Below are positions 45,694-59,700 of a stretch of DNA of 59,815 nucleotides, piece after piece. How positions within the stretch are numbered: position 1 is the first letter of the stretch; each line of letters opens with the position of its first letter. The translations under genes were made by a program, and so were the position numbers. The stretch spans positions 1 through 59,815 of the forward strand of contig CABHPB010000001.1 of NCBI GenBank assembly GCA_902168115.1. Direction: 5' to 3'. The notes under the pieces are model-generated. The model was given only the letters and a program-made list of their open reading frames with translations. It searched no databases and had not been told where the DNA came from. The DNA is from an uncultured Methylopila sp. Lineage in GTDB: Bacteria; Pseudomonadota; Alphaproteobacteria; Rhizobiales; Methylopilaceae.

Positions 45694-46710
45694 TCAGGAC
45701 TGCGCCACCAGGCGCCCCTCCGTCCGGTCGTAGCGGACGAAGGCGGCGGGCGAGACATGGGCGCCGCCGACCCAGTGCTCCACCGTGTTGACCACGCGAT
45801 GGTCGAGGCGTCCGGCCAGCACCTCGCGGCCGGCCCTCGTCAGCCTCAGCCGGGCGCGGGCGAACTCGGCGTAGCCGCGGTCGGCGGGGCGACCGACATA
45901 GCTCCTCGACGTCGCCGGCAGGCCTTCGATCAGCGGGCGCTCGGCGAAGGCGAGCCCGTCGAGCCGGCGGAAGAAGCTCGCGTCGCCGAGGAACCGGGCA
46001 TCGTCCTCCTCCGTCACGCGTCGGAACAGCTCGCCGGAGGAGACCTCCTCGCGGCCGAGATGCGCGAGCGCGCGCTCTTCCGTCAGCGTGAGGCCCCTGA
46101 GCGGGTCCGGAAGCTCCGCGAGCAGTCGCTTCAGGGCGCCGCAGAGATGGGGCAGGGCGCTGGTGTCCGCGTCGGCGAGCTCCACGAGGGCGTGGGGCGA
46201 GGGCGCGGTGAACGCGGCCCATGCGGCGCTCGCGAGGGTCTGCTGCTCCTTCGTCACCGGCCGCGCGTCGCCGGCGAGGCGGCGCATGCGCCGCGGATCC
46301 TGCCGGCCGAGATAGTCGTCGGCCTGGACGAGATAGAGCCCGTCGAGCCGGTTCTCGGAGCGAAAAAAGTCAAGGATCTGAAGCAGCTGAAGCTGGTCGT
46401 AGAGGTCGTGCTCCAGCCAGATCTCGATGCGCTCGTAGTCCGCGTGCCGGCGCACTGCGGCGTCGCGGTCGTGGAACTCGGCCGCGACCTCGTCCGCCCC
46501 GAGGCCGAAGTCGGCGGCGATGAACGCCGCGCGGATCGCCGACAGCCGCTCCAACCCGCCGGCGTCCGGAACCGGCCCGTCATGCAGGACGTCGCGCCAC
46601 GCCAGCACGGACCCGGCGATCCCGGCCGCCTGCAGCCGCGTGACGGCGCTGTCGCCGTTGGTGATGACCAGACGCTCGGCCGGCGCGGACTCCGTCGTGT
46701 CAGTCGTCAT
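45694..46710 (-). CDS. DUF1835 domain protein
   Basis: The 338-residue protein begins with the DUF1835 pattern LVITNGDSAVTRLQAAGI and SVLAWRDVLHDGPVPDAGGL, followed by FHDRDAAVRRHADYERIEIW. The C-terminal half is helical with LTEERALAHLGREEVSSGEL. No activity is known for the family. It is on the minus strand, converging on kdsA with six bases between stops. It lies 179 bases downstream of the formyltransferase-like gene. Confidence 0.88.
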   Translation of the reverse strand: MTTDTTESAPAERLVITNGDSAVTRLQAAGIAGSVLAWRDVLHDGPVPDAGGLERLSAIRAAFIAADFGLGADEVAAEFHDRDAAVRRHADYERIEIWLEHDLYDQLQLLQILDFFRSENRLDGLYLVQADDYLGRQDPRRMRRLAGDARPVTKEQQTLASAAWAAFTAPSPHALVELADADTSALPHLCGALKRLLAELPDPLRGLTLTEERALAHLGREEVSSGELFRRVTEEDDARFLGDASFFRRLDGLAFAERPLIEGLPATSRSYVGRPADRGYAEFARARLRLTRAGREVLAGRLDHRVVNTVEHWVGGAHVSPAAFVRYDRTEGRLVAQS

Positions 46711-46888: not shown

Positions 46889-47818
46889 TCAGCCGAGAAT
46901 GGCGCCCGTCTCGAGCCCCGCGGCTCGCGCGAAGTCCCCGGCCGGCGCCTTGCCCTCGCCGTCCAGCTGGACGCGCGTGACCTTCATGCGCCCGTCGGCG
47001 CAGACCACCTGGAACCCGTCCTCCTCGATCTCGACGATCTGGCCGAGCTTGCCGCCGATCTCCTTCGGGGTCTTCGCCGGCATCGGCGTCGCGTCGAGGA
47101 TCTTGAGCGTCTTGTCGCCGAGCGTCGTCCAGGCGCCGGGAGCGGGATTGCAGCCGCGTATCAGCCGGTCGATCTGTGACCAGGGTTTGCCCCAGTCGAT
47201 CCGCGCGTTCCCCTTGCGGCAGAGGCCCTCATAGGTCGCGAGGCTCTCGTCCTGCCTGATGCGGGGCGCCTTGCCCTCGCGCACGAGATCGACGGCCTCG
47301 AGCATGGCTTCGACGCCCATCGGGAACAGGCGATCAAAATAGACCGAGCCCAGCGTGTCCTTCGGGCCGATCGGGGTCGTCTTCTGCAGGAGCACGTCGC
47401 CCGTATCGAGCCCGTCGTCCGGCCAGAAGATCGAAAGGCCCGTTTCCTTCTCGCCCTTGATGATCGGCCAGTTGATCGCCGAGGCGCCGCGATAGGCCGG
47501 CAGCAGGGACGGATGGTACTGGATCGACCCGAGCGCCGGGATGTTCAGGAAGGTCGAGGGCACGAACAGTGTCACGAAGGCCATCACCTGAAGGTCCGGC
47601 TTCAGCGCCCTGAACTCGTCATGGACGGCATCGTCCTTGTAGGAGGCCGGCTGGCGCACCTCGAGGCCGGCGGCGAGCGCCGCCTCCTTCAGCGGATCGG
47701 CCTTCTGGCCCTCCTTCTCGGGGGCGACGTAGACGGCGACGACGTTCTCGCCGCGCGCGAGCAGCGCGTCCAGCACCGCCTTGCCGAAGGCCTGCTGGCC
47801 GTGGACCACGATCCGCAT
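46889..47818 (-). CDS. Formyltransferase-like protein, FDH hydrolase-domain type (putative formyl-CoA/tetrahydrofolate enzyme)
   Basis: The 309-residue protein has a formyltransferase N-terminal domain and Fmt-type C-terminal domain. The sequence follows the hydrolase domain of 10-formyltetrahydrofolate dehydrogenase (ALDH1L1) more than methionyl-tRNA formyltransferase. SIQYHPSLLPAYRGASAINW and SIFWPDDGLDTGDVLLQ align with it, as do ATYEGLCRKGNARIDWGKP and IRGCNPAPGAWTTL. Catalytic His102 and Asp138 are spaced as in that domain; Gln100 replaces the Fmt Asn. In the dehydrogenase the domain passes formyl to a phosphopantetheine arm, the same chemical group as in CoA. Next to frc and oxc it could move formyl between CoA and tetrahydrofolate. 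Reaction inferred. Confidence 0.75.
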   Translation of the reverse strand: MRIVVHGQQAFGKAVLDALLARGENVVAVYVAPEKEGQKADPLKEAALAAGLEVRQPASYKDDAVHDEFRALKPDLQVMAFVTLFVPSTFLNIPALGSIQYHPSLLPAYRGASAINWPIIKGEKETGLSIFWPDDGLDTGDVLLQKTTPIGPKDTLGSVYFDRLFPMGVEAMLEAVDLVREGKAPRIRQDESLATYEGLCRKGNARIDWGKPWSQIDRLIRGCNPAPGAWTTLGDKTLKILDATPMPAKTPKEIGGKLGQIVEIEEDGFQVVCADGRMKVTRVQLDGEGKAPAGDFARAAGLETGAILG

Positions 47819-47989: not shown

Positions 47990-48030
47990 CAGAAACGCCG
48001 CCGCGCTGGAAAAGCGCGGCGGCGTCTTTT
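47990..48030 (-). terminator. Strong terminator after frc
   Basis: On the minus strand, arms of 12 bases (CGCCGCCGCGCT and its complement) with a five-base loop are followed by a T-rich run (TTTCTGTTTTT). It lies 16-56 bases past the frc stop and before the formyltransferase-like gene, so that gene needs its own promoter or read-through. On the plus strand it is followed by TCTTTT, so it may work both ways. Confidence 0.85.
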
Positions 48031-48045
48031 CAGATCAGACTTTAA

Positions 48046-49323
48046 TCACTCGGCCGCGAGCTTGGTCACCTGGCCGACGGCGCCGGCGTTCTCGATTTCG
48101 GCGATCTCGTTGTCGTTGTAGCCGAGGACGTCCTTGAGGATCTCGCCCGTATGCTCGCCGAGCAGCGGGGCGCGGAGAACTTCCGTCTTCGAGTTGGACA
48201 GCTTGATCGGGTTGCCGACGGTGAGGTGCTTGCCGCGGGTCGGATGGTCGACCTCGACGATCGTGCCGGTCGCGCGCAGCGCCTCGTCCTCGGCGATCTC
48301 CTTCATGGACAGGATCGGACCGCAGGGGATGTCGAACTCGTTGAGGATGTCCATCGCCTCGAACTTGTCCTTCTTCATGGTCCAAGCTTCGATGCGCGTG
48401 AAGATCTCGTTGAGGTGCGGCAGGCGCGCCTTCGGCGTCGCGTAGTCCGGATCGGTCTTCCAGCCCGGCTCGCCGATGATGTCGCAGATCGGCTCCCAGA
48501 CCGCCGCTTGGGTGATGAAGTAGATGTAGGCGTTGGGGTCGTGCTCCCAGCCCTTGCACTTCAGGATCCGACCCGGCTGGCCGCCGCCCGAATCGTTGCC
48601 GGCGCGCGGGGTCGCGTCACCGAACGGCACGCCCTCGCCGAACTGGCTGTATTCCTTGAGCGGGCCGTGGGGCAGGCGCTGCTGGTCGCGCAGCTTCACG
48701 CGGCAGAGGTTCAGCACGCCGTCCTGCATCGCACAGTCGACCTTCTGGCCGACGCCGGAGTGGGTCCGGTGGTAGAGCGCGGTCACAATGCCGAGAGCCA
48801 GATGCAGCCCCGTGCCCGAATCGCCGATCTGGGCGCCGGTGACGAGCGGCACGCCGTCGCGGAAACCGGTGGTCGAGGCCGAGCCTCCGGCGCACTGCGC
48901 GACGTTCTCATAGACCTTGCAGTCCTGGTAGCGGCCCGGGCCGAAGCCCTTCACGGAGGCGACGATCAGCTTCGGATTCGCGGCCTGCAGCTTCTCCCAG
49001 GAGAAGCCCATGCGGTCGAGCGCGCCGGGCGCGAAGTTCTCGACGAGCACGTCGCACTCCTTCACCAGCCGCCAGAGGACTTCCTTGCCCTTGGGGTTCT
49101 TGGTATCGATCGTGATCGAGCGCTTGTTGTGGTTCAGCATCGTGAAATAGAGGCTGTCCACGTCCGGGATGTCCTGCAGCTGCTGGCGCGTGGCGTCGCC
49201 CGCGCCCGGCCGCTCGACCTTGATGACGTCGGCGCCGAACCAGGCGAGCAGCTGTGTGCAGGTCGGACCCGACTGCACATGCGTGAAGTCCAGGATGCGG
49301 ACGCCCTGGAGAGCCTTTTCCAT
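48046..49323 (-). CDS. frc: Formyl-CoA:oxalate CoA-transferase
   Basis: Frc transfers CoA from formyl-CoA to oxalate, giving oxalyl-CoA and formate. The 425-residue class III CoA-transferase starts [20 protein letters not shown]. It has the catalytic aspartate in [18 protein letters not shown] (Asp168, equivalent to Asp169 of Oxalobacter). The glycine loop is present as [20 protein letters not shown], with Ser in place of one glycine. The C-terminus has [19 protein letters not shown], as in Frc. It lies 161 bases downstream of oxc on the same strand. A good GGGAAG precedes the ATG. Confidence 0.95.
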
Positions 49324-49419
49324 CGTGATTCTTCCCTGTCGGTCGCGCGCCGCTCAGGCCTCGCGGGGCCATTCTTTGAAAGTAATGACGGCGCAAAAGG
49401 CGCGCCGTCAATTCGTCTC

Positions 49420-49483: not shown

Positions 49484-51229
49484 TCAGGCGGACTTCTTCT
49501 TCACGACGCTCTGCGGGTTGAGGCTGCCGATGTTGCCGCTCTCCGAGCCCGCTTCGGGGTCGATCGCCGCGTTGATCAGCGTGGGACGGCCCGAGTCCAT
49601 CGCCTCGTTGACGGCGCGGGACAGCTCGTCCGGCGTCTCGACATGGACGCCGACGCCGCCAAAGGCCTCCATCATCTTGTCGTAGCGCGAGTCCTTGACG
49701 AAGACGGTGGTGCCGGGGTCGCGACCGGTCGGGTCGGTGTCGGTGCCGCGATAGATGCCGTTGTTGTTGAACACGACGATGCAGACCGGCAGGTTGTACC
49801 GGCAGATGGTCTCGACCTCCATGCCGGAGAAGCCGAAGGCGCTGTCGCCCTCGACCGCGAGCACCGGCTTGCCGGTCTCAATCGCGGCGGCGACCGCGAA
49901 GCCCATGCCGATGCCCATGATGCCCCAGGTGCCCACGTCGAGGCGCTTGCGCGGTTCGTACATGTTGATGACGCCGCGGGCGAGGTCGAGCGTGTTGGCG
50001 CCCTCGTTGACGAGGATCGCGTCAGGACGCTGCTCGATGATCGTGCGCAGCGCGCCGAGCGCGGAGTGGAAGTCCATCGGAATGGAGTTCTTGCCGAGCT
50101 TGGTCGCCATCTTGGCGATGTTGGCGTTGCGCTTCTCGGCGATCGCGCTGGTCCACTCGGCCGGCGGCGGCGGGCAGTCGGCGTTGATGTGGCCGAGCAG
50201 CGCGTTGACGCAGGAGCCGATGTCGCCGACGAGCGGCGCGACGATCTCGACGTTGGAGTCCATCTCCTTCGGCTCGATGTCGATCTGAATGAACTTCTTG
50301 GAGCCCGGAGCGCCCCAGGTCTTGCCCTTGCCGTGGCTGAGCAGCCAGTTCAGGCGCGCGCCGACCAGCAGCACGACGTCCGAGTCCTTGAGCGCGGTCG
50401 AGCGCGCGGCGCCGGCCGAAAGCGGGTGAGTGTCGGGCAGCAGGCCCTTGGCCATGCTCATCGGCACGAACGGGATGCCGCTCTTCTCGACGAGCTGGCG
50501 AATGGCGTCGTCGCACTGGGCGTAGGCCGCGCCCTTGCCGAGCACGATGATCGGCTTCTTCGCGGTCTTCAGGACGTCGATGGCGCGCTGGACCGCCTCG
50601 GGTGCGGGGATCTGGGCCGGGGCCGGATCGATCACCTTGATGAGCGACTTGGCGCCCTTCTCGGCCCCGAGGGTCTGCGACAGAAGCTTGGCCGGCAGGT
50701 CGAGATAGACGCCGCCCGGACGGCCGGAGACCGCCGCGCGGATCGCGCGGGCGACGCCGATGCCGATGTCCTCGGCGTGCAGCACGCGGAACGCCGCCTT
50801 GCAGAGGGGCTTGGCGATGTTGAGCTGGTCCATCTCCTCGTAGTCGCCCTGCTGCAGGTCGACGATCTCACGCTCGGACGAGCCCGAGATCAGGATCATC
50901 GGGAAGCAGTTGGTGGTGGCATTGGCCAGCGCCGTGAGGCCGTTCAGGAAGCCCGGCGCGGACACCGTCAGGCAAATGCCCGGCTTCTTGGTGAGGAAGC
51001 CGGCGATCGCCGCGGCGTTGCCGGCGTGCTGCTCGTGGCGGAAGGAGACGACGCGGATGCCGGCCGCCTGGGCCATGCGGCCGAGGTCGGTGATCGGAAT
51101 GCCCGGCACGCCGTAGATGGTCTCGATGCCGTTGAGCTTCAGGGCGTCGATGACGAGGTTGAACCCGTCGGTGAGCTCCTGATGCACAGACGCGTCATTT
51201 GTGGATTCGGGCCTGACCGCGACGTTCAT
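49484..51229 (-). CDS. oxc: Oxalyl-CoA decarboxylase
   Basis: Oxc uses thiamine diphosphate to decarboxylate oxalyl-CoA to formyl-CoA. The 581-residue protein follows the family: the N-terminal Glu region [19 protein letters not shown] (Glu at about residue 61), [20 protein letters not shown] and [20 protein letters not shown]. The diphosphate-binding segment is [20 protein letters not shown], followed by FNNNGIYRG (about residue 458-495). The C-terminal [14 protein letters not shown] is typical. GGAGGAAA precedes the ATG. With frc it regenerates formyl-CoA from oxalate. Confidence 0.96.
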
Positions 51230-51272: not shown

Positions 51273-51959
51273 TCAGTCGAGCGTGACGAATTCTTCGACG
51301 TGATCGCGAAGCTTCAGCGTGTGCTCGCGCACCAGCCTCTCCGCCCGCTCTCCGTTGCGGGCCTCGATCGCTTCGACGATGTCCTTGTGGTCGACGATCG
51401 AACGACGCGCCCTGTCGCGCTCGTAGATCGTGCGACGGCGAATCGCGCGGACATGGGTGAACAGCCCGTTCGCGAGGTCCGCGATCATCCGGCACCCCGA
51501 CGCGGCGATGATCGCCTGGTGGAAGCGGATGTTCGCGTCGGAATACTCGTACATGTGCTGGCCGACGTCCTCGCCGTGGAAGCCGTCGACGAGGGCGTGG
51601 AGCGCGGCGACCTGCTCGGGCGTCGCCTCGTCCGCCGCCAGACGGGCCGCCATGCTCTCGAGCGCGGCCCAAACCGTGATCATTTCGAGGATTTCGCCCT
51701 TAGTCTTTCGGGCGATATAGATGCCGCGGCGCGGCACGATCCGGACGATGCCTTCGAGCTCCAGCTGCGCGAGCGCCTCGCGCAGCGGCGTGCGGCTGAC
51801 TCCGAAGCGCAGAGACAGCGCGCGCTCGTCGAGCCTCAGCTGAGCCTCGTCGTCATAGATATCCATCTGCGCGATCGCGCTCTTCAGCGCGTCGTAAGCC
51901 CGCCATTTCAGGCTGGGCGTGTCGTCGATCGGCTGGATGTCGAGGTCTGCGTTCGCCAT
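51273..51959 (-). CDS. GntR family regulator, FCD type (minus-strand copy)
   Basis: The 228-residue protein has a winged helix (residues 15-80: [26 protein letters not shown] and a [11 protein letters not shown] wing). An FCD effector domain follows ([20 protein letters not shown]), with metal-binding histidines such as [18 protein letters not shown]. It is directly upstream of oxc on the same strand, 43 bases apart, and divergent from the transporter operon. It is closely related to the second GntR at 55.7 kb. The effector is probably an oxalate-derived acid or thioester. Confidence 0.92.
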
Positions 51960-52045: not shown

Positions 52046-52226
52046 TACACCTGATGCGGTTCCGCATGCAACTGCTGTTTTCCACCGCCAAGTAATGCTG
52101 CGGCGCAACATGAAAAGGCATCTTGCATGCCAGTTCAGCGCAGCTTAGCCTTCTCGTCAAAGCTGTCGGAACGGGCTTATACCGGCCTGTCGAAAGAACA
52201 GCGTCGCTCGGGTGGAAGGAATTCGC

Positions 52227-53738
52227 GTGGAGGAAATCGGCTCCCTGCTTGGCGGCTTCGCCGTCGCCATTTCCCCGTACAACATCGCCTTGATGGTGGT
52301 GGGCATCGTCCTCGGCGTGGTGATCGGCGTGCTGCCGGGCCTCGGCGGCGCCAACGGCGTCGCGATTCTGCTGCCGCTGACCTTCGGCATGGATCCGACC
52401 TCCGCGATCATCATGCTGACCTCGATCTACTGGGGCGCGCTGTTCGGAGGCGCGATCACGGCGGTCTTGTTCAACATACCGGGCGAACCATGGTCGGTGG
52501 CGACCACGTTCGACGGCCACCCGATGGCGCAGAAGGGCAAGGCCGACGAGGCGCTCGTCGGCGCCTTCACCTCCTCCTTCGTCGGCGCGATCTTCGCGGT
52601 GATCCTCATCACCTTCCTCGCGCCGGTCATCGCCAAGTTCGCGCTGCGCTTCGGCCCGGCGGAGTTCTTCGCGGTCCAGTTCCTGACATTCGCGAGCTTC
52701 CTCGGCATGGGCCGCGGCTCGCCGATGAAGACGCTGGCCTCGATGTGCCTGGGCTTCGCACTTGCGTCGGTTGGGCTTGACGGCGTCACCGGAACGCTGC
52801 GCCTGACCTTCGGACACGATGAGTTGATGAACGGGTTCAAGTTCCTGGTCGCGGTCATCGGTCTGTTCGGCATCGGCGAAATCCTGTCCTCGATGGAGGA
52901 GGGGCTCGCTTTCCGCGGCGCCGCGGCGAAGCTGAAAATGGACGCCGTCATCCGCACCTGGAAGCAGCTGCCCTCGATGGCGGTGACCTTCCTTAGGAGC
53001 TGCATCGTCGGCTGCTGGATGGGCATCACCCCCGGCGGCGCGACGCCGGCCTCCTTCATGGGCTACGGCCTCGCCAAGCGGTTCTCGAAGCGCGGCCGGT
53101 TCTTCGGCAAGGGCGAGCTCGAGGGCGTCGTGGCGCCGGAGACCGCCGCGCATGCCGCCGGCACCGCGGCCATGCTGCCGATGCTCACCCTCGGCATTCC
53201 CGGCTCGCCGACCGCCGCGGTGCTGCTGGGCGGCCTGCTGATCTGGGGCCTGCAGCCCGGCCCGCTGCTCTTCGTCGAGCAGAAGGAGTTCGTCTGGGGC
53301 CTGATCGCCTCGATGTACATGGGCAACGTCGTCGGCCTGGTCATCGTGCTGACATGCGTGCCGCTGTTCGCCGCGATCCTGCGCGTGCCGTTCTCGATCA
53401 TCGCCCCGGCGATCGTCGTGGTCTGCGCGATCGGCGCCTACACCGTGAACAACGCCATGTTCGACGTGTGGATGATGCTGGTGTTCGGCGTCCTCGGATA
53501 CCTGTTCACCAAGCTCGGCTATCCGCTGCCGCCGCTGGTCCTCGCGCTGGTCCTCGGCGATCAGGCGGAGAGCTCGTTCCGGCAGGCGATGCTGACCTCG
53601 CAGGGCGATGTCACCGTCTTCTGGCACAACTGGCTGTCGGGCGGGATCATGACCCTCGGCGTCGCGCTCGCGCTCTGGCCGCTGGTCTCGATGCTCTTCG
53701 GCAAGAAGGACGACGACGCCGTCGCCAACCCCGCCTGA
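52227..53738 (+). CDS. tctA: Tripartite tricarboxylate transporter, large membrane subunit
   Basis: TctA is the main membrane subunit of a TTT-family transporter. The 503-residue protein has about twelve membrane helices and the family signatures LGGANGVAILLPLTFGMDPTS, SIYWGALFGGAITAVLFNIPG, TPGGATPASFMGYGLAKRFS and LTLGIPGSPTAAVLLGGLL. I place the start at GTG (VEEIGSLLGG), because AAGGA lies seven bases upstream; a GTG at 52212 is possible. The next gene is the binding protein. Its location beside oxc/frc suggests oxalate as the substrate, an inference. Confidence 0.93.
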   Translation: MEEIGSLLGGFAVAISPYNIALMVVGIVLGVVIGVLPGLGGANGVAILLPLTFGMDPTSAIIMLTSIYWGALFGGAITAVLFNIPGEPWSVATTFDGHPMAQKGKADEALVGAFTSSFVGAIFAVILITFLAPVIAKFALRFGPAEFFAVQFLTFASFLGMGRGSPMKTLASMCLGFALASVGLDGVTGTLRLTFGHDELMNGFKFLVAVIGLFGIGEILSSMEEGLAFRGAAAKLKMDAVIRTWKQLPSMAVTFLRSCIVGCWMGITPGGATPASFMGYGLAKRFSKRGRFFGKGELEGVVAPETAAHAAGTAAMLPMLTLGIPGSPTAAVLLGGLLIWGLQPGPLLFVEQKEFVWGLIASMYMGNVVGLVIVLTCVPLFAAILRVPFSIIAPAIVVVCAIGAYTVNNAMFDVWMMLVFGVLGYLFTKLGYPLPPLVLALVLGDQAESSFRQAMLTSQGDVTVFWHNWLSGGIMTLGVALALWPLVSMLFGKKDDDAVANPA

Positions 53739-53816
53739 AGGCTAGCTGGCGCGCCGTCCCGAACGTCCGCATAACAAAAAAAGCCGTGCTGTAACGGCGA
53801 CTTGGGAGGACTGAGC

Positions 53817-54842
53817 ATGATTGGTAAGTCGCTGAGGAAGACCGCGATCGCTCTCGCCGCAGGCGCGGCGATGCTCACGGCCTTCGCGCCGGGCGCCGCG
53901 CGCGCCGAATGGGCGCCGACCAAGGCGGTGACGTTCATCATTCCCGCCGGCACGGGCGGCGGCGCGGACCAGATGGCGCGCTTCATCCAGGGCGTCATCC
54001 AGAAGAACAACCTGCTCGACAAGCCGGTGGTCGTCATCAACAAGGGCGGCGGCGCCGGCGCCGAGGGCTTCATCGAGATGAAGGGCTCGGCGAAGGACCC
54101 GCACAAGATCATCATCACCCTGTCCAACCTGTTCACGACGCCGCTGGGCACCGGCGCGCCGTTCTCGTGGAAGGACATGAAGCCGGTCGCGATGCTCGCG
54201 CTCGACCAGTTCATCCTGTGGACCAACGCCGAGAAGAACTACGCCGACGCCAAGGCCTACATCGACGCGGTGAAGGCGGGAACGGACCGGCAGTTCAAGA
54301 TGGGCGGCACCGGCTCCAAGCAGGAAGACCAGATCATAACCGCCGCGATCGAGAAGCAGACCGACGGTAAGAAGTTCACCTACGTGCCCTACGACGGCGG
54401 CGGCAAGGTCGCTGTCCAGCTCGTCGGCGGCCACATCGACTCGTCAGTCAACAACCCGATCGAGGCCGTCGCCCAGTGGCGCGGCAAGCAGCTGAAGCCG
54501 CTCTGCATCTTCGACTCGAAGCGGTCGACCTACACCGAGAAGGTCACTGACGACATGGCCTGGAGCGACATCCCGACCTGCACCGAGGCGGGCCTCCCGG
54601 TCGAGTACCAGATGCTGCGCGGCATCTTCACGACCGCCGGCGCGACCGACGAGCAGGTCGCCTTCTACGTCGACCTCTTCAAGAAGGTGCTCGCGACCGA
54701 GGACTGGAAGGAGTTCATGAAGAAGGGCGCCTTCAACCAGACCTTCATGTCGGGCGCGGAGTTCGACAAGTGGCTGACCGACACTGAAGCCAAGCACAAG
54801 GAGCTGATGCAGGGCGCCGGCTTCCTGGCGGCGGCTCAGTAA
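53817..54842 (+). CDS. tctC: TTT substrate-binding protein (TctC/Bug family)
   Basis: The 341-residue periplasmic binding protein has a signal peptide (KTAIALAAGAAMLTAFAPGAARA). Family motifs are PTKAVTFIIPAGTGGGADQM, the ligand loop VIQKNNLLDKPVVVINKGGG and YVPYDGGGKVAVQLVGGHID. GGGAGGA precedes the ATG. The Bug family binds dicarboxylates and other small carboxylates. It lies between the tctA and tctB homologues, an unusual gene order (A-C-B rather than C-B-A). Confidence 0.92.
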   Translation: MIGKSLRKTAIALAAGAAMLTAFAPGAARAEWAPTKAVTFIIPAGTGGGADQMARFIQGVIQKNNLLDKPVVVINKGGGAGAEGFIEMKGSAKDPHKIIITLSNLFTTPLGTGAPFSWKDMKPVAMLALDQFILWTNAEKNYADAKAYIDAVKAGTDRQFKMGGTGSKQEDQIITAAIEKQTDGKKFTYVPYDGGGKVAVQLVGGHIDSSVNNPIEAVAQWRGKQLKPLCIFDSKRSTYTEKVTDDMAWSDIPTCTEAGLPVEYQMLRGIFTTAGATDEQVAFYVDLFKKVLATEDWKEFMKKGAFNQTFMSGAEFDKWLTDTEAKHKELMQGAGFLAAAQ

Positions 54843-54885: not shown

Positions 54886-55416
54886 ATGACCGACATCACT
54901 GAGCCGCAGCCTGGGGAAAGCCACGAACCGGCGCTCATCACCCTGCGGATGGCCGACATCGTGGTCGCCTGCCTGTTCCTGATCGTCTCGGCGATCGTGA
55001 TCTCCGACAGCGTCCGGCTCGGATTCCATTGGCAGGACAGCGTCGGCCCGGCGCCGGGATACTTCCCGTTCTACGTCGCGGTCGTGATGGCGATCGCGAG
55101 CGCCTACAACCTTGGCCGCGCGATCCTTTCGCGCGGTCCCGACGAGCAGGAGGCCATGACGACGAAGACCGGCGTGCTTCGCATGTCGGCGATCTTCCTG
55201 CCCGCGGTGATCTACGTCTTCGCCACGAGCTACATCGGGATCTACGTCGCGTCCGCGATCTATATCGCCGCCTTCATGATCTTCTTCGGCAAGTTCGCCA
55301 TCTGGAAGGCGCTGGCGGTGGCGCTGTCGATCTCGATCGTCAGCTTCATGATGTTCGAGGTCTGGTTCCTCGTACCGTTGCCCAAGGGACCGCTGGAGGC
55401 CGCGTTCGGATACTGA
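54886..55416 (+). CDS. tctB: TTT small membrane subunit
   Basis: The 176-residue protein has four membrane helices (IVVACLFLIVSAIVISDSVR, then YFPFYVAVVMAIASAYNLGR, and two more). It corresponds to TctB, the small subunit that completes the TTT complex. GGCGAAGGAA precedes the ATG. It is followed by a strong terminator, closing the transporter operon. Confidence 0.9.
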   Translation: MTDITEPQPGESHEPALITLRMADIVVACLFLIVSAIVISDSVRLGFHWQDSVGPAPGYFPFYVAVVMAIASAYNLGRAILSRGPDEQEAMTTKTGVLRMSAIFLPAVIYVFATSYIGIYVASAIYIAAFMIFFGKFAIWKALAVALSISIVSFMMFEVWFLVPLPKGPLEAAFGY

Positions 55417-56443: not shown

Positions 56444-56498
56444 ATTCGCGGACCGACGGCAGCCGGAGCCGCTTGCCACGCTGGCGGCCGGCTGTCAT

Positions 56499-56508
56499 TG
56501 GTATACCA
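56499..56508. promoter_or_regulatory. Perfect palindrome TGGTATACCA, candidate GntR operator
   Basis: The palindrome lies 47 bases upstream of the ligase ATG and 55 past the GntR stop. Its sequence is that of typical FCD-GntR half-sites (TGGT/ACCA). It matches the site at 52036 with one mismatch. Confidence 0.6.
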
Positions 56509-56554
56509 GATCAACGGCGCCGTCAGAGCGCCTGACTGGGAGGAGGCGCGACCG

Positions 56555-57730
56555 ATGCGGCTGCACGAATTCCAGGCGAAGCGGCTGCTCGGCGACTACG
56601 GCCTGCCGATCCCGCGCGGCGCCGTCGCGCTGACCCCCGACGAGGCCGAGGCCGTCGCCCGCGACCTCGGCGCGAACCGGATCGCCGTCAAGGCCCAGAT
56701 CCAGGCCGGCGAGCGGCTCGGCGCCGGCGGGATCAAGATCGTCAGCGGCCCGGCGATGGCGAAAAACGCTGCGCAGGAGATGTTCGGCCGGCGCATCGTC
56801 ACCGCGCAGACCGAGGAGGACGGCGAGACAGTCCGGCGCGTCTACGTGGAGGAGGGGATTTCGATCGCCCGCTCGCTGCACCTCGCGCTGCTCGTCGACT
56901 GGTCCGTCGGCGGACTGGTCGCCGTGGCGAGCCCGGACGGCGGCGAGGGCATCGAGGAACGCGCCCGCCGCGGCGACTTCCGCCAGGAGCGCGTCGCGCT
57001 GCCGCTGGCGGGTCCCGCGGACAAAGCGGAGGTCGCGGCGTTCTTTGGACGGGTCGGCCTCGAGGGGCCGATCGTCGAGGCCGCCTGCGACATCGTCGAG
57101 GGCCTTCGCAAGGCGTTCGTCGAACTCGACGCCACGCTGATCGAGATCAACCCGCTCGCCGTGACGACGCAGGGCGAACTCGTCGCGCTCGACGTGAAGA
57201 TGACGCTCGATGACAACGCGCTGTTCCGCCACCCGGACCTTGCGAGCCTGCGCGACGAGGCGGAGGCGGACCGCATCAAGCTCTCGGCGCATCGCGACCA
57301 GCTGAACTTCGTCCAGCTCGACGGCGACATCGGGCTCGTCTCGAACGGGGCGGGCCTTGGTCTCGCGACGCTCGACATGGTCAAGGCCGCGGGCGGAAAG
57401 CCCGCGAACTTCATGGACATCCGCACCACAGCGCGCAGTCTCGACATCGCGCACGGCTTCGCGCTGCTGCTCGACAACCCGAAGATCCGCACGCTGCTCA
57501 TCAACGTCCATGGCGGCGGCATGCAGTCCTGCGACACGATCGCGGAAGGGCTCGGCGTCGCACTGCGCCGCTCGGGCCGCAAGCTGCCGATCGTGATCCG
57601 GCTCGCCGGCCAGAACGCAGAGTTCGCCCGCAACCGGCTCGCGAATTTCGGCTGCGCCGTGATCGAGGCGGCCGACATGGGCGCGGCGGCCGAGCGCGCC
57701 GTGCAGGTCGCGGCGACGGGGAGGGCTTGA
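56555..57730 (+). CDS. Acid-CoA ligase (ADP-forming) beta subunit, SucC/MtkA-like
   Basis: The 391-residue ATP-grasp protein starts MRLHEFQAKRLLGDYGLPIP and carries IAVKAQIQAGERLGAGGIKI, VELDATLIEINPLAVTTQGE and ALFRHPDLASLRDEAEADR, as in succinyl-CoA and malate-CoA ligase beta chains. It departs at two substrate-side loops: NFLDVGGGA of SucC is NFMDIRTTA here (about residues 285-293), and the NIFGGI loop is NVHGGGMQSCD (about 316). The start is at ATG after GGAGGCG. Context points to an oxalate- or similar small dicarboxylate-CoA ligase; family is sure, substrate is not. Confidence 0.85.
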   Translation: MRLHEFQAKRLLGDYGLPIPRGAVALTPDEAEAVARDLGANRIAVKAQIQAGERLGAGGIKIVSGPAMAKNAAQEMFGRRIVTAQTEEDGETVRRVYVEEGISIARSLHLALLVDWSVGGLVAVASPDGGEGIEERARRGDFRQERVALPLAGPADKAEVAAFFGRVGLEGPIVEAACDIVEGLRKAFVELDATLIEINPLAVTTQGELVALDVKMTLDDNALFRHPDLASLRDEAEADRIKLSAHRDQLNFVQLDGDIGLVSNGAGLGLATLDMVKAAGGKPANFMDIRTTARSLDIAHGFALLLDNPKIRTLLINVHGGGMQSCDTIAEGLGVALRRSGRKLPIVIRLAGQNAEFARNRLANFGCAVIEAADMGAAAERAVQVAATGRA

Positions 57731-57731
57731 G

Positions 57732-58613
57732 ATGGCGATCCTGCTCGATCGGGACACCCGCGTCGCCGTCCAGGGCATGACCGGCTGGGCCGGCACGCAC
57801 CACACCACGCAGATGATGGAGTACGGCACCAACGTCGTCGGCGGCGTGAGGCCCGGCAAGGGCGGACGCTCGCACCTCAACCTGCCGGTCTATGACAATG
57901 TCGCCGCGATCCGCGCGGAGACCGGCGCCAACGCCTCGATCGTGTTCGTGCCGCCGTCGACCGCCGCCTCCGCCATGATCGAGGCGATCGAGGCCGAGAT
58001 GCCGCTGGTCGTCACCGTGACCGAGCGCGTGCCGACGCTCGACATGGTCCGCGTCAAGGACGCGCTGAAGGGATCGAAGACCCGCCTCGTCGGCGCCAAC
58101 AGCCAGGGCGTGCTCGCGCCGGGCGTCTGCAAGCTCGGCGTGATGGCGACCGGTTCGGAGCGGGCGGGCTCGATCGGAATCGTCTCGCGCTCCGCCTCGC
58201 TGACGAGCGAGGTGGTCGCGCAGGTGAGCGCTGTCGGACTCGGGCAGTCGACCACCGTCGGCGTCGGCGGCGACGCGATCCACGGCATGTCGATGCGCGA
58301 CTGCGTCGAGCTGTTTCTCGCCGACCCCGACACCAAGGGCGTCGTGCTGATCGGCGAGATCGGCGGCAGCCAAGAGCAGGAGGTCGCCGAGCTGCTCGAG
58401 GAGACGCGGACGACCAAGCCGGTCGTCGCGCTGGTCGTCGGCACGCACGCCCCGCGCGAGCGGCGTATGGGCCATGCCGGCGCGCTGACTTTCGGCTTCA
58501 AGGGCGACGCCGCCTCGAAGATCGCGGCGTTCGAGAAGGCGGGCGTGCGCGTCGCGCCGAGCGCGCATCTCGTCGGCCGCACGATCGCAGAGGCGATGGC
58601 CCGCGCGAACTGA
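57732..58613 (+). CDS. Acid-CoA ligase (ADP-forming) alpha subunit, SucD/MtkB-like
   Basis: The 293-residue subunit binds CoA and carries the phosphorylated histidine in RRMGHAGAL (His248, equivalent to His246 of E. coli SucD). The N-terminus is MAILLDRDTRVAVQGMTGWA, with VGGVRPGKGGRSHL and IGEIGGSQEQEVAELLEE. Departures from SucD are GANSQGVLAP for the usual GPNCPGVITP (about residues 121-128) and RSASLTSE for RSGTLTYE. These positions face the CoA/substrate side in the family, which suggests an altered acid specificity. It starts one base after the beta-subunit stop. Confidence 0.85.
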   Translation: MAILLDRDTRVAVQGMTGWAGTHHTTQMMEYGTNVVGGVRPGKGGRSHLNLPVYDNVAAIRAETGANASIVFVPPSTAASAMIEAIEAEMPLVVTVTERVPTLDMVRVKDALKGSKTRLVGANSQGVLAPGVCKLGVMATGSERAGSIGIVSRSASLTSEVVAQVSAVGLGQSTTVGVGGDAIHGMSMRDCVELFLADPDTKGVVLIGEIGGSQEQEVAELLEETRTTKPVVALVVGTHAPRERRMGHAGALTFGFKGDAASKIAAFEKAGVRVAPSAHLVGRTIAEAMARAN

Positions 58614-58683
58614 CGCTTTTCCCGTTCGAAAATTCCTTGGCTGACGCGCGTCGGGCGCGCCGGCCCACGAGGGGGGTACGCCT

Positions 58684-59700
58684 GTGAAAGTCTGCATCTT
58701 CGGCGCGGGCGCGATCGGCGGATACATGGCCGTGCTGATGAAGCAGGCCGGGATCGACGTCTCGCTCGTCGCGCGAGGCCCTCATCTGGCGGCGATCCGC
58801 GAGAACGGGCTGAAGCTCCTGATCGACGGTGAGGAAAAGGTCGCGCGGATGCCGGCGACCAAGATTCCCGCCGAGCTTGGCCCGCAGGACTTTGTGGTCG
58901 TCGGGCTGAAGTCGCACCAGGCCTGGGAGTCGGCGGAGGAGATGGCCCCGTTGCTCGGTCCGGACACGGCGGTCGTCACCGCACAGAACGGCGTTCCGTG
59001 GTGGTACTTCCACAGCCTCGAGGGTCCGTTCAGGGATCTGCGCCTGAAGAGCGTCGATCCCGGAAACCGCCAATGGAACGCAATCGGCCCGCAGCGGATC
59101 ATCGGCGCGACGGTCTATCCGGCGACCGAGATCGTCGAGCCAGGCGTCATCAAGCACACCTATGGCGACGCCTTCGGCCTCGGCGAGCCCGACCGGACGA
59201 AGACGACGCGCCTGAAAGCCTTCGGCGACGCGCTCGACGCCAGCGGGCTCAGGGCGCGCTATTACGACGACATCCGCGACGACATCTGGCTGAAGCTCTG
59301 GGGGAACCTCTGCTTCAATCCGATCTCCGCGCTGACCCGCGCGACGCTCGACGTGGTCGCAACCGATCCCGGCACGCGGGCGCTCGCGAAGAACATGATG
59401 CTGGAGGCGCAGGCGATCGGCGAGACGCTGGGCGCGAAGTTCAAGGTCGGAGTGGAGCGCCGTATCGACGGCGCGGCCAAGGTCGGCGCGCACCGCACCT
59501 CGATGCTGCAGGACCTCGAGGCCGGCAAGCCGCTGGAGCTCGACGCGCTGCTCTCGGCGGTTCAGGAAATGGGCCAGCTGGTGGCGGTCCCGACCCCTTT
59601 TATCGATGCCGTGCTCGCGCTCGCAAAGCAGATGGGCCGCTCGTTCGAGGTCTATCCGACGTTCCCGGAAGAGCGGCCGCAGGCCGAGGCGGCGGAGTAG
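58684..59700 (+). CDS. Putative oxalyl-CoA reductase, PanE2-like (ketopantoate reductase family)
   Basis: The 338-residue protein belongs to the ketopantoate reductase family, with the NADP motif CIFGAGAIGGYMAVLMKQAG. Later motifs are VLMKQAG-type, TAQNGVPWWYFHSLEGPFRD, KLWGNLCFNPISALTRATLD and DLEAGKPLELDALLSAVQEM. It is longer than PanE of about 300 residues. In Methylobacterium extorquens a PanE-family protein, PanE2, reduces oxalyl-CoA to glyoxylate for oxalate assimilation. The gene starts with GTG after GAGGGGGG. Context with oxc, frc and the ligase supports this over pantoate synthesis. Confidence 0.8.
   Translation: MKVCIFGAGAIGGYMAVLMKQAGIDVSLVARGPHLAAIRENGLKLLIDGEEKVARMPATKIPAELGPQDFVVVGLKSHQAWESAEEMAPLLGPDTAVVTAQNGVPWWYFHSLEGPFRDLRLKSVDPGNRQWNAIGPQRIIGATVYPATEIVEPGVIKHTYGDAFGLGEPDRTKTTRLKAFGDALDASGLRARYYDDIRDDIWLKLWGNLCFNPISALTRATLDVVATDPGTRALAKNMMLEAQAIGETLGAKFKVGVERRIDGAAKVGAHRTSMLQDLEAGKPLELDALLSAVQEMGQLVAVPTPFIDAVLALAKQMGRSFEVYPTFPEERPQAEAAE

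Follow-up and report, generated by a model that had tools for sequence, protein, structure and literature searches.

The window analysed here, a stretch of 59,815 nucleotides from an uncultured Methylopila sp. (contig CABHPB010000001.1), carries a gene that was named fdhH for this analysis and whose product resembles the hydrolase domain of 10-formyltetrahydrofolate dehydrogenase (FDH). This protein is probably a soluble, stand-alone and reversible formyltransferase between 10-formyl-tetrahydrofolate (10-formyl-THF) and coenzyme A (CoA), with the reaction formyl-CoA + THF <=> 10-formyl-THF + CoA. From the predicted fold, the active-site residues, the clade, the gene order and the co-occurrence with other genes, we infer the reaction, its reversibility and its net direction. 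An exchange of formyl groups between CoA and THF would be the most likely activity because the protein combines a folate site with thiol chemistry of the FDH type and its gene lies, in close relatives, between frc (formyl-CoA:oxalate CoA-transferase) and fhs (formate-THF ligase).

46889..47818, minus strand: fdhH, stand-alone FDH-hydrolase-like protein of 309 amino acids (His102, Ser104 and Asp138; Gln100), candidate 10-formyl-THF:CoA formyltransferase

The fdhH open reading frame is unbroken and starts with ATG. On the plus strand, frame 1 contains a stop codon across the same place, and the open reading frames over the gene are all shorter, except one mechanical frame of 407 amino acids which overlaps just the end of the gene. 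The original prediction, made from the letters of this DNA, had placed a gene here without naming its strand, and the intact minus-strand frame confirms it. Pfam found Formyl_trans_N (PF00551) and Formyl_trans_C (PF02911) in the protein and nothing else. Since the Formyl_trans_N match begins at residue 1, the protein has no extra N-terminal domain. Neither a carrier domain nor an aldehyde dehydrogenase (ALDH) domain was detected by Pfam; the complete FDH (ALDH1L1) architecture is not present, and the protein stands alone, as had been proposed. The C-terminal enoyl-CoA hydratase-like domain of HypX was also absent from the Pfam result.

None of the NCBIfam cut-offs was reached by the fdhH protein, the best score being that of fmt (TIGR00460, 158.7 bits against an equivalog cut-off of 201.5). 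Among solved structures in the PDB, the top sequence matches are the FDH hydrolase domains 2bw0 (211 bits) and 4qpd (209 bits), which bears out the resemblance suggested earlier, and weaker matches were obtained with Fmt (175 bits), ArnA (89 bits) and HypX (45 bits). The AlphaFold2 model is confident, with a mean predicted local distance difference test score (pLDDT) of 95.0 and a predicted template modelling score (pTM) of 0.89. Foldseek searches with this model ranked the FDH hydrolase first by E-value, and the template modelling scores (TM-scores) were 0.91 for Fmt, 0.88 for ArnA, 0.86 for FDH and 0.66 for HypX.

The active site was compared in an alignment of 109 family rows, 15 Fmt-type rows, E. 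coli Fmt, ArnA, PurU, Cupriavidus HypX and two FDHs. The 109 rows are 107 distinct sequences, and L009 and L123 are probably one genome; no match that could be aligned was obtained from L155, a PurN locus, which therefore dropped out, and G259 was not included. His102 and Asp138 of the fdhH protein align with His106 and Asp142 of FDH, both pairs being spaced by 36 residues, and Ser104 aligns with Ser108. These three residues are invariant in the close (81/81) and in the distant rows (28/28). The proposal that His102 and Asp138 reproduce the spacing of the FDH catalytic pair is confirmed. Furthermore, the equivalents of FDH His106, Ser108, Asp142, Arg114 and Tyr200 are kept in 109/109 family rows, and that of Phe89, which stacks on the THF pterin in FDH (PMC4388273), is Phe in 81/81 close and 22/28 distant rows.

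Regarding the column of FDH Ile104, which holds Gln100 of the fdhH protein two residues before His102, the comparators carry Asn in 18/18 cases (the 15 Fmt-type rows, E. coli Fmt, ArnA and PurU). The family presents Gln in 105/109 rows and Cys in 4/109, never Asn, and this position is Ile in FDH and Val in HypX. For Fmt, ArnA and GART, this Asn is described as crucial, and the I104N variant of FDH retains <10% activity (PMC4388273). According to the same source, the NADP-independent hydrolysis by FDH in vitro requires millimolar mercaptoethanol. This need for an added thiol itself points to a thiol acceptor. FDH is described as transferring the formyl group of 10-formyl-THF to the thiol of a phosphopantetheine, the same group in which CoA ends (PMC8748788). 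The family looks like the thiol-acceptor type because the Asn is missing, as it is in the thiol-acceptor enzymes FDH and HypX; this argument is a correlation over few acceptor classes, in which HypX is represented by one distant sequence.

Concerning the placement of the family, two trees were built with 67 (first) and 48 (second) of the 130 sequences in the alignment collection. In the 48-row tree, 30 bacterial family members and two animal FDH hydrolase domains form one clade (support 100/100) apart from 16 Fmt-type rows; among the latter, E. coli Fmt and the Fmt of the window's own genome were verified, and the other 14 are lower-scoring matches from the class survey described below, not individually verified. 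This tree does not distinguish between FDH nested in the bacterial family and FDH as its sister (approximately unbiased test, p-AU 0.455). The first tree, which included long rows, had shown nesting, which was lost after the long rows were removed, and it was discarded. The class survey left a gap in score between the family (at least 291 bits) and the other matches (at most 184 bits), with the exception of a contig-end fragment in G178 (84% identity, 166 bits) which belongs with the family. The phylum survey used a cut-off of 1e-60, and its lowest retained score was 274 bits.

PF00551 has three matches in the genome of the window. The two besides fdhH score as Fmt and PurN, and no PurU was found above the cut-off. 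The bona fide Fmt, encoded elsewhere in the genome, reaches 263.7 bits with TIGR00460 and shares 35% identity with the fdhH protein. A second methionyl-tRNA formyltransferase, or another amine formyltransferase, is what the best NCBIfam match and the annotation 'fmt_2' in the plasmid record CP031587.1 would suggest. However, the score of 158.7 bits is below 201.5, the genome already has an Fmt of its own, the Asn is missing in 109/109 family rows and the clade is separate, with support 100/100. Such an activity is thus extremely improbable, the candidate was rejected and, by its sequence, the fdhH protein is not Fmt.

Gene order was compared in relatives found in genome contigs, of which there are 231, and the counts given here over 80 refer to the best 80 of them, that is, the closest. 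The frc gene lies directly upstream of fdhH in 78/80 loci, the other two being at contig ends, and the gap between both genes is at most 280 bp in 75 of the 78, the largest being 1032 bp. Canonical oxc, which encodes oxalyl-CoA decarboxylase, is found upstream in 64/80 loci and another thiamine diphosphate (ThDP) enzyme in 3/80; the contig ends too early in 11, and two loci have no oxc despite room for it, both genomes carrying Oxc elsewhere. Downstream, fhs follows on the same strand within ~275 bp in 68/80 loci, and in 64 of the 74 that have at least 700 bp of downstream sequence. In the other ten, namely L018 and nine loci from the group to which the window belongs (Chelatococcus, Hansschlegelia, Methylopila), fhs does not follow. 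The NCBIfam cut-off was passed by the three fhs genes that were checked, those of L105, L110 and L032, the last being among the 80.

Plasmid matches amounted to 329 records, and one annotated record, CP031587.1, was examined. Its order is gntR-oxc-frc-'fmt_2'-fhs, followed by genes including TctB, TctA, ketopantoate reductase and glyA, and the opposite strand carries ppc and sucCD, which is a serine-cycle-like setting. In three genomes of 1.7-2.1 Mb from another class of the same phylum (L135, L136, L137), the order is oxc-frc-frc-fdhH, with two differing frc copies of which the second adjoins fdhH. An apparent Frc-fdhH fusion in G044, an open frame of 730 amino acids, was ruled out since the long frame reads frc out of frame.

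This gene order also bears on two hydrolytic activities. The protein could be a 10-formyl-THF hydrolase, PurU-like or like the FDH hydrolase domain alone, which would release formate and THF and balance the folate pools. It is named 'hydrolase' through homology, the FDH hydrolase domain is reported to hydrolyse 10-formyl-THF in vitro (PMC4388273), and the other two PF00551 proteins of the genome are Fmt and PurN, with no PurU above the cut-off. Nevertheless, a hydrolase with fhs directly after it, as in the close relatives, would create an ATP-wasting futile cycle. Moreover, the Asn of PurU is missing from the family, the thiol required by FDH hydrolysis points to a thiol acceptor, and hydrolysis would not account for the association with frc and with Oxc or the alternative ThDP enzyme, all of which makes this function quite unlikely. 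The second activity is that of a formyl-CoA hydrolase or discharging enzyme (EC 3.1.2.10, the 'Type III' oxalate pathway), in which water and not THF takes the formyl group. The available text of PMC10192776 describes such a hydrolase without an associated gene, and it would fit the linkage to frc and oxc, but the clade and the folate-contact residues belong to folate enzymes and the linkage to fhs points to folate. This function is regarded as very unlikely.

Beyond the close relatives, two surveys of evenly drawn genomes were made, one of 398 Pseudomonadota (phylum survey) and the other of 289 Alphaproteobacteria (class survey). Oxc and the ThDP enzyme were searched in genomes at E <= 1e-150, and the surveys scored just the first few candidates per genome. 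In the phylum survey, Oxc was present in 30 genomes, fdhH in 10 and both in 9 (Fisher 2e-10, a p-value that ignores relatedness); counted by genus (212 genera), fdhH was present in 6, Oxc in 13 and both in 5 (p 2e-6, shared ancestry being ignored). The class survey yielded 21 genomes with fdhH, 12 with Oxc and 13 with the alternative ThDP enzyme; nine of the 21 fdhH genomes have Oxc and ten the alternative enzyme, so that 19/21 have either, where 1.8 were expected. Over both surveys, the 29 fdhH genomes are divided into 17 with Oxc, 10 with the alternative enzyme and 2 with neither (27/29 with either). The original prediction had proposed to look for conserved linkage to oxc and frc across genomes. 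This linkage is non-random (frc in 78/80 and oxc in 64/80 close relatives, frc in 18/29 survey genomes), and the conserved gene order and the co-occurrence clearly contradict a random arrangement. Thus fdhH is broadly associated with formyl-CoA enzymes, whereas a tight association with fhs is confined to the nearer relatives.

In the oxc slot of L005 (6775-8520), L018 (6476-8290) and L032 (6383-8140), a 2-hydroxyacyl-CoA-lyase-like ThDP enzyme is encoded, and the same enzyme appears in the class-survey loci L108, L109, L110, L113, L120 and L121. Five of these six class-survey copies lie directly before frc, and the L109 copy lies ~5 kb upstream. The alternative enzyme shares 25-26% identity with Oxc over the aligned part (five of the nine were aligned). 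It was also ruled out as an Oxc orthologue because its motif is without the Tyr-Glu, Tyr and Ser positions of MeOXC, which are discussed in PMC8411744. The cut-off was reached by none of the 25 best NCBIfam models for the L005 and L018 enzymes, and canonical Oxc was not found at 1e-150 in any of the nine genomes. The best solved relatives of the L032 enzyme are 2-hydroxyacyl-CoA lyases (263 bits), which are enzymes that release formyl-CoA.

Among the 21 fdhH genomes of the class survey, Oxc (9) and the alternative enzyme (10) never overlap, where an overlap of 4.3 was expected (p 2e-4); their non-overlap across all 289 genomes is uninformative alone, the expectation being 0.5. The Frc of two operons with the alternative enzyme is still above the oxalate Frc cut-off. 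Should the alternative enzyme, like its relatives, produce formyl-CoA, fdhH would track formyl-CoA and not oxalate.

In the window, the minus-strand gene order is gntR, oxc, frc, fdhH, and the features around fdhH are the following:

51273..51959, minus strand: GntR-type regulator, first gene of the cluster (58/80 close loci have a GntR match, mostly directly before oxc)
49484..51229, minus strand: oxc, oxalyl-CoA decarboxylase (TIGR03254, 1005 bits, cut-off 739)
49386-49410, minus strand: terminator-like hairpin of 10 pairs, after oxc, inside the cluster
48046..49323, minus strand: frc, formyl-CoA:oxalate CoA-transferase (TIGR03253, 719 bits, cut-off 504)
47993..48027, minus strand: strong terminator-like hairpin of 15 pairs with a T-rich tail, between frc and fdhH
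52212-53738 and 53802-54842, plus strand: TctA and TctC candidates (no NCBIfam match)
54886-55416, plus strand: TctB of a tripartite tricarboxylate transporter (Pfam PF07331)
56498..58613, plus strand: SucC-like and SucD-like ATP-dependent acyl-CoA ligase pair (NCBIfam), possible source of CoA thioester
58684..59700, plus strand: ketopantoate-reductase-like protein, candidate oxalyl-CoA reductase or CoA-acylating glyoxylate dehydrogenase of the PanE2/ApbA2 type

Oxc and Frc are above their equivalog cut-offs, in agreement with the earlier claim that Oxc is encoded next to fdhH, and a motif mapping by eye indicates that the Tyr-Glu, Tyr and Ser of the MeOXC active site are also present in the window Oxc. 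The two transporter candidates are taken to be TctA and TctC by their position; TctA-like matches are present in 44/80 close loci and TctC-like ones in 43/80. The SucC-like beta subunit stays below the malate-CoA ligase cut-off. The SucCD-like pair followed by the PanE-like reductase near the oxalate genes (56498-59700) could be a branch for oxalyl-CoA supply and reduction; the PanE2/ApbA2 enzyme type is described in PMC7486775. Downstream of fdhH, the minus strand encodes a DUF1835-like protein (45694-46710) just under the Pfam cut-off, and of the 80 close loci, L004 (Chelatococcus) alone gave a DUF1835-like match. The hairpins after frc and oxc may uncouple or attenuate the transcription of frc and fdhH. 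By a simple test, the frc-fdhH gap holds a terminator-like hairpin in 12/78 relatives.

As for the mechanism of the proposed formyltransferase, folate would bind the Rossmann-type N-terminal subdomain, the formyl group would be oriented and polarised by His102, Ser104 and Asp138, and the thiol of CoA would stand in for the phosphopantetheine thiol of the FDH carrier domain. Formyl-CoA would be provided by Oxc or the alternative ThDP enzyme, Frc would spend it on oxalate activation, and Fhs would turn the formate released by Frc into 10-formyl-THF. The fdhH enzyme could be a valve between the CoA-formyl and folate-formyl pools. In a surplus of formyl-CoA, it would liberate CoA and pass the formyl group to one-carbon (C1) metabolism; in a shortage, it would reverse and, with Fhs, prime the Frc/Oxc cycle.

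Concerning the net direction, formyl-CoA is a thioester and, by its free energy, donates formyl more strongly than 10-formyl-THF does; transfer of the formyl group from CoA to THF should therefore be downhill. The cycle of Frc and Oxc makes no net CoA thioester: every oxalyl-CoA yields one formyl-CoA, which activates the next oxalate, and a drain of formyl-CoA must therefore be repaid by a new thioester. This could come from a CoA ligase (the SucCD-like pair), from succinyl-CoA or, as a candidate, from the oxidation of glyoxylate by a PanE2/ApbA2-type enzyme. Without an extra source of thioester, a primer role (10-formyl-THF -> formyl-CoA) would be more sensible. The original prediction had assumed that the formyl group is otherwise lost to Frc, which did not prove right: Frc hands CoA to the next oxalate and conserves the thioester, so the argument from energy saving is weak. 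The recovery of ATP, which had also been suggested, fails as stated and would apply only if oxalyl-CoA comes otherwise, for example from glyoxylate oxidation. The pairing of formyl-CoA with 10-formyl-THF finds support in the gene order, the co-occurrence and the residues, but not the direction assigned to it, since the reverse fits the genomic data equally well.

This reverse flux could even be the only role. In that case fdhH and Fhs would form a two-step formyl-CoA synthetase (formate + ATP + THF -> 10-formyl-THF; + CoA -> formyl-CoA) that starts or tops up the Frc/Oxc cycle after a loss of formyl-CoA or a drain of oxalyl-CoA to glyoxylate. The enzyme is the same with the opposite net flux, and its probability is a share of that of the same activity. 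A drain of oxalyl-CoA, for instance by a PanE2-type reductase (with candidates in the window and in CP031587.1), would demand new thioester, Frc and Oxc merely recycling CoA; fhs follows fdhH in 68/80 close relatives, and HypX works in this direction. On the other hand, the step from 10-formyl-THF to formyl-CoA is uphill unless pulled, the serine-cycle-type genes of the CP031587.1 cluster suggest that the formyl group is wanted on folate, and fhs is adjacent in only 7/29 survey genomes. Furthermore, succinyl-CoA is described as a possible substitute for formyl-CoA (PMC12188714). Priming alone is a tentative possibility, somewhat on the unlikely side. For the reversible formyltransferase, both net directions are kept, with a leaning towards a near-equilibrium valve.

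Several observations weigh against the proposed formyltransferase. The predicted fold is as near to Fmt as to FDH and fold alone is not decisive for function; as the TM-scores of both are alike, the comparison carries no weight either way. Position 100 is neither the Ile of FDH nor the Val of HypX, and Gln might function there like Asn. The 80 closest loci are largely of common ancestry and the linkage is looser beyond them, with frc adjacent in 18/29 and fhs in only 7/29 survey genomes (fdhH lies apart from frc in 11/29 and from fhs in 22/29). In the window, fhs is absent beside fdhH, and the fhs of this genome is on another contig. Co-transcription of frc and fdhH is not assured because the strong terminator-like hairpin separates them, and fdhH may be transcribed separately in the window. 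Moreover, 21/30 Oxc genomes of the phylum survey are without fdhH, so this gene is not needed for oxalotrophy generally, and G281 and G288 (2/29) have no Oxc, alternative ThDP enzyme or close Frc at the thresholds used. At the fdhH loci of these two genomes (L119 in G281 and L111 in G288) the neighbours were judged by eye.

On a wider scale, a stand-alone formyl-CoA:THF formyltransferase would join the CoA and folate one-carbon pools in some Alphaproteobacteria (21/289 sampled) and a few other Pseudomonadota, within a module of the order gntR-(oxc or alternative ThDP lyase)-frc-fdhH-fhs, which sends C2 acids to C1-folate or, reversed with Fhs, acts as a formyl-CoA synthetase. Since the animal FDH hydrolase domain is in the same clade, the thiol chemistry of FDH may share descent with the bacterial CoA enzyme. 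For this picture as a whole, the chances seem evenly balanced. If it is true, oxalate and perhaps glyoxylate would gain a direct entry to C1 metabolism, and the family would be renamed, the annotated record CP031587.1 calling its member a methionyl-tRNA formyltransferase. The enzyme would also be a building block for synthetic formyl-CoA pathways (HACL/OXC carboligases), and it would bear on the origin of the thiol-dependent hydrolase domain of FDH.

The half-reaction has a precedent, since the N-terminal domain of HypX is reported to formylate CoA. This domain was proposed to move the formyl group from 10-formyl-THF to CoA at a time when direct evidence was lacking (PMC6802093), and a 2025 review credits Schulz et al. 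with showing this transfer (PMC12134894). The statement of the original prediction that no enzyme of this kind has been characterised needs to be narrowed in view of HypX. It holds for a stand-alone enzyme, of which, as of the fdhH-fhs pair, no description was found in the literature searched, most subscription papers being outside the search. In the available oxalate literature, the only fates given for formyl-CoA are Frc and a hydrolase without a gene, an extra gene like fdhH in the oxalate cluster is not mentioned, and the terms tetrahydrofolate, THF and formyltransferase are absent from the main text of the oxalotrophy papers PMC12927642 and PMC10192776. The new part, if right, would be a free-standing enzyme on diffusible formyl-CoA, that is, a formyltransferase like the FDH hydrolase and HypX using free CoA, and its place in catabolism.

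Compared with known systems, the fdhH protein is like the FDH hydrolase domain (ALDH1L1; 2bw0, 4qpd, 1s3i, 7rlu), with 37-38% identity in the structure match, and shares with it the His-Ser-Asp triad, the equivalents of Arg114, Phe89 and Tyr200 and the lack of Asn at position 104. The acceptor in FDH is the phosphopantetheine thiol, whereas the acceptor or donor of the fdhH protein would be free CoA. Unlike FDH, it stands alone without carrier and ALDH domains, has Gln in place of Ile104, is bacterial and is encoded beside oxalate genes. The N-terminal domain of HypX/HoxX, from [NiFe]-hydrogenase maturation (6j0p, 6j1f), belongs to the same fold group and is also without the Asn, but its identity to the fdhH protein is just 19-20% in the structure match and the Ser of the triad is not conserved. 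HypX is described as fused to an enoyl-CoA-hydratase-like decarbonylase, with CoA as a bound prosthetic group and formyl-CoA retained in the protein.

Fmt shares with the fdhH protein the two-domain fold and the HxSLLPxxxG motif (35% identity for the genome's own Fmt), but it has Asn at the 104 position, belongs to another clade and has its gene elsewhere in the genome. PurU shares a Formyl_trans_N-type domain and the His/Asp pair, but it has Asn where the fdhH protein has Gln, and only the latter presents the Formyl_trans_C domain. PurU carries an N-terminal ACT-type regulatory domain. Finally, the Oxc-Frc oxalate clusters with PanE2/ApbA2 of Methylobacterium and Cupriavidus share the gntR-oxc-frc core and a nearby candidate oxalyl-CoA reductase with the cluster in the window, whereas here the extra fdhH, together with fhs in the close relatives, ties the cluster to folate.

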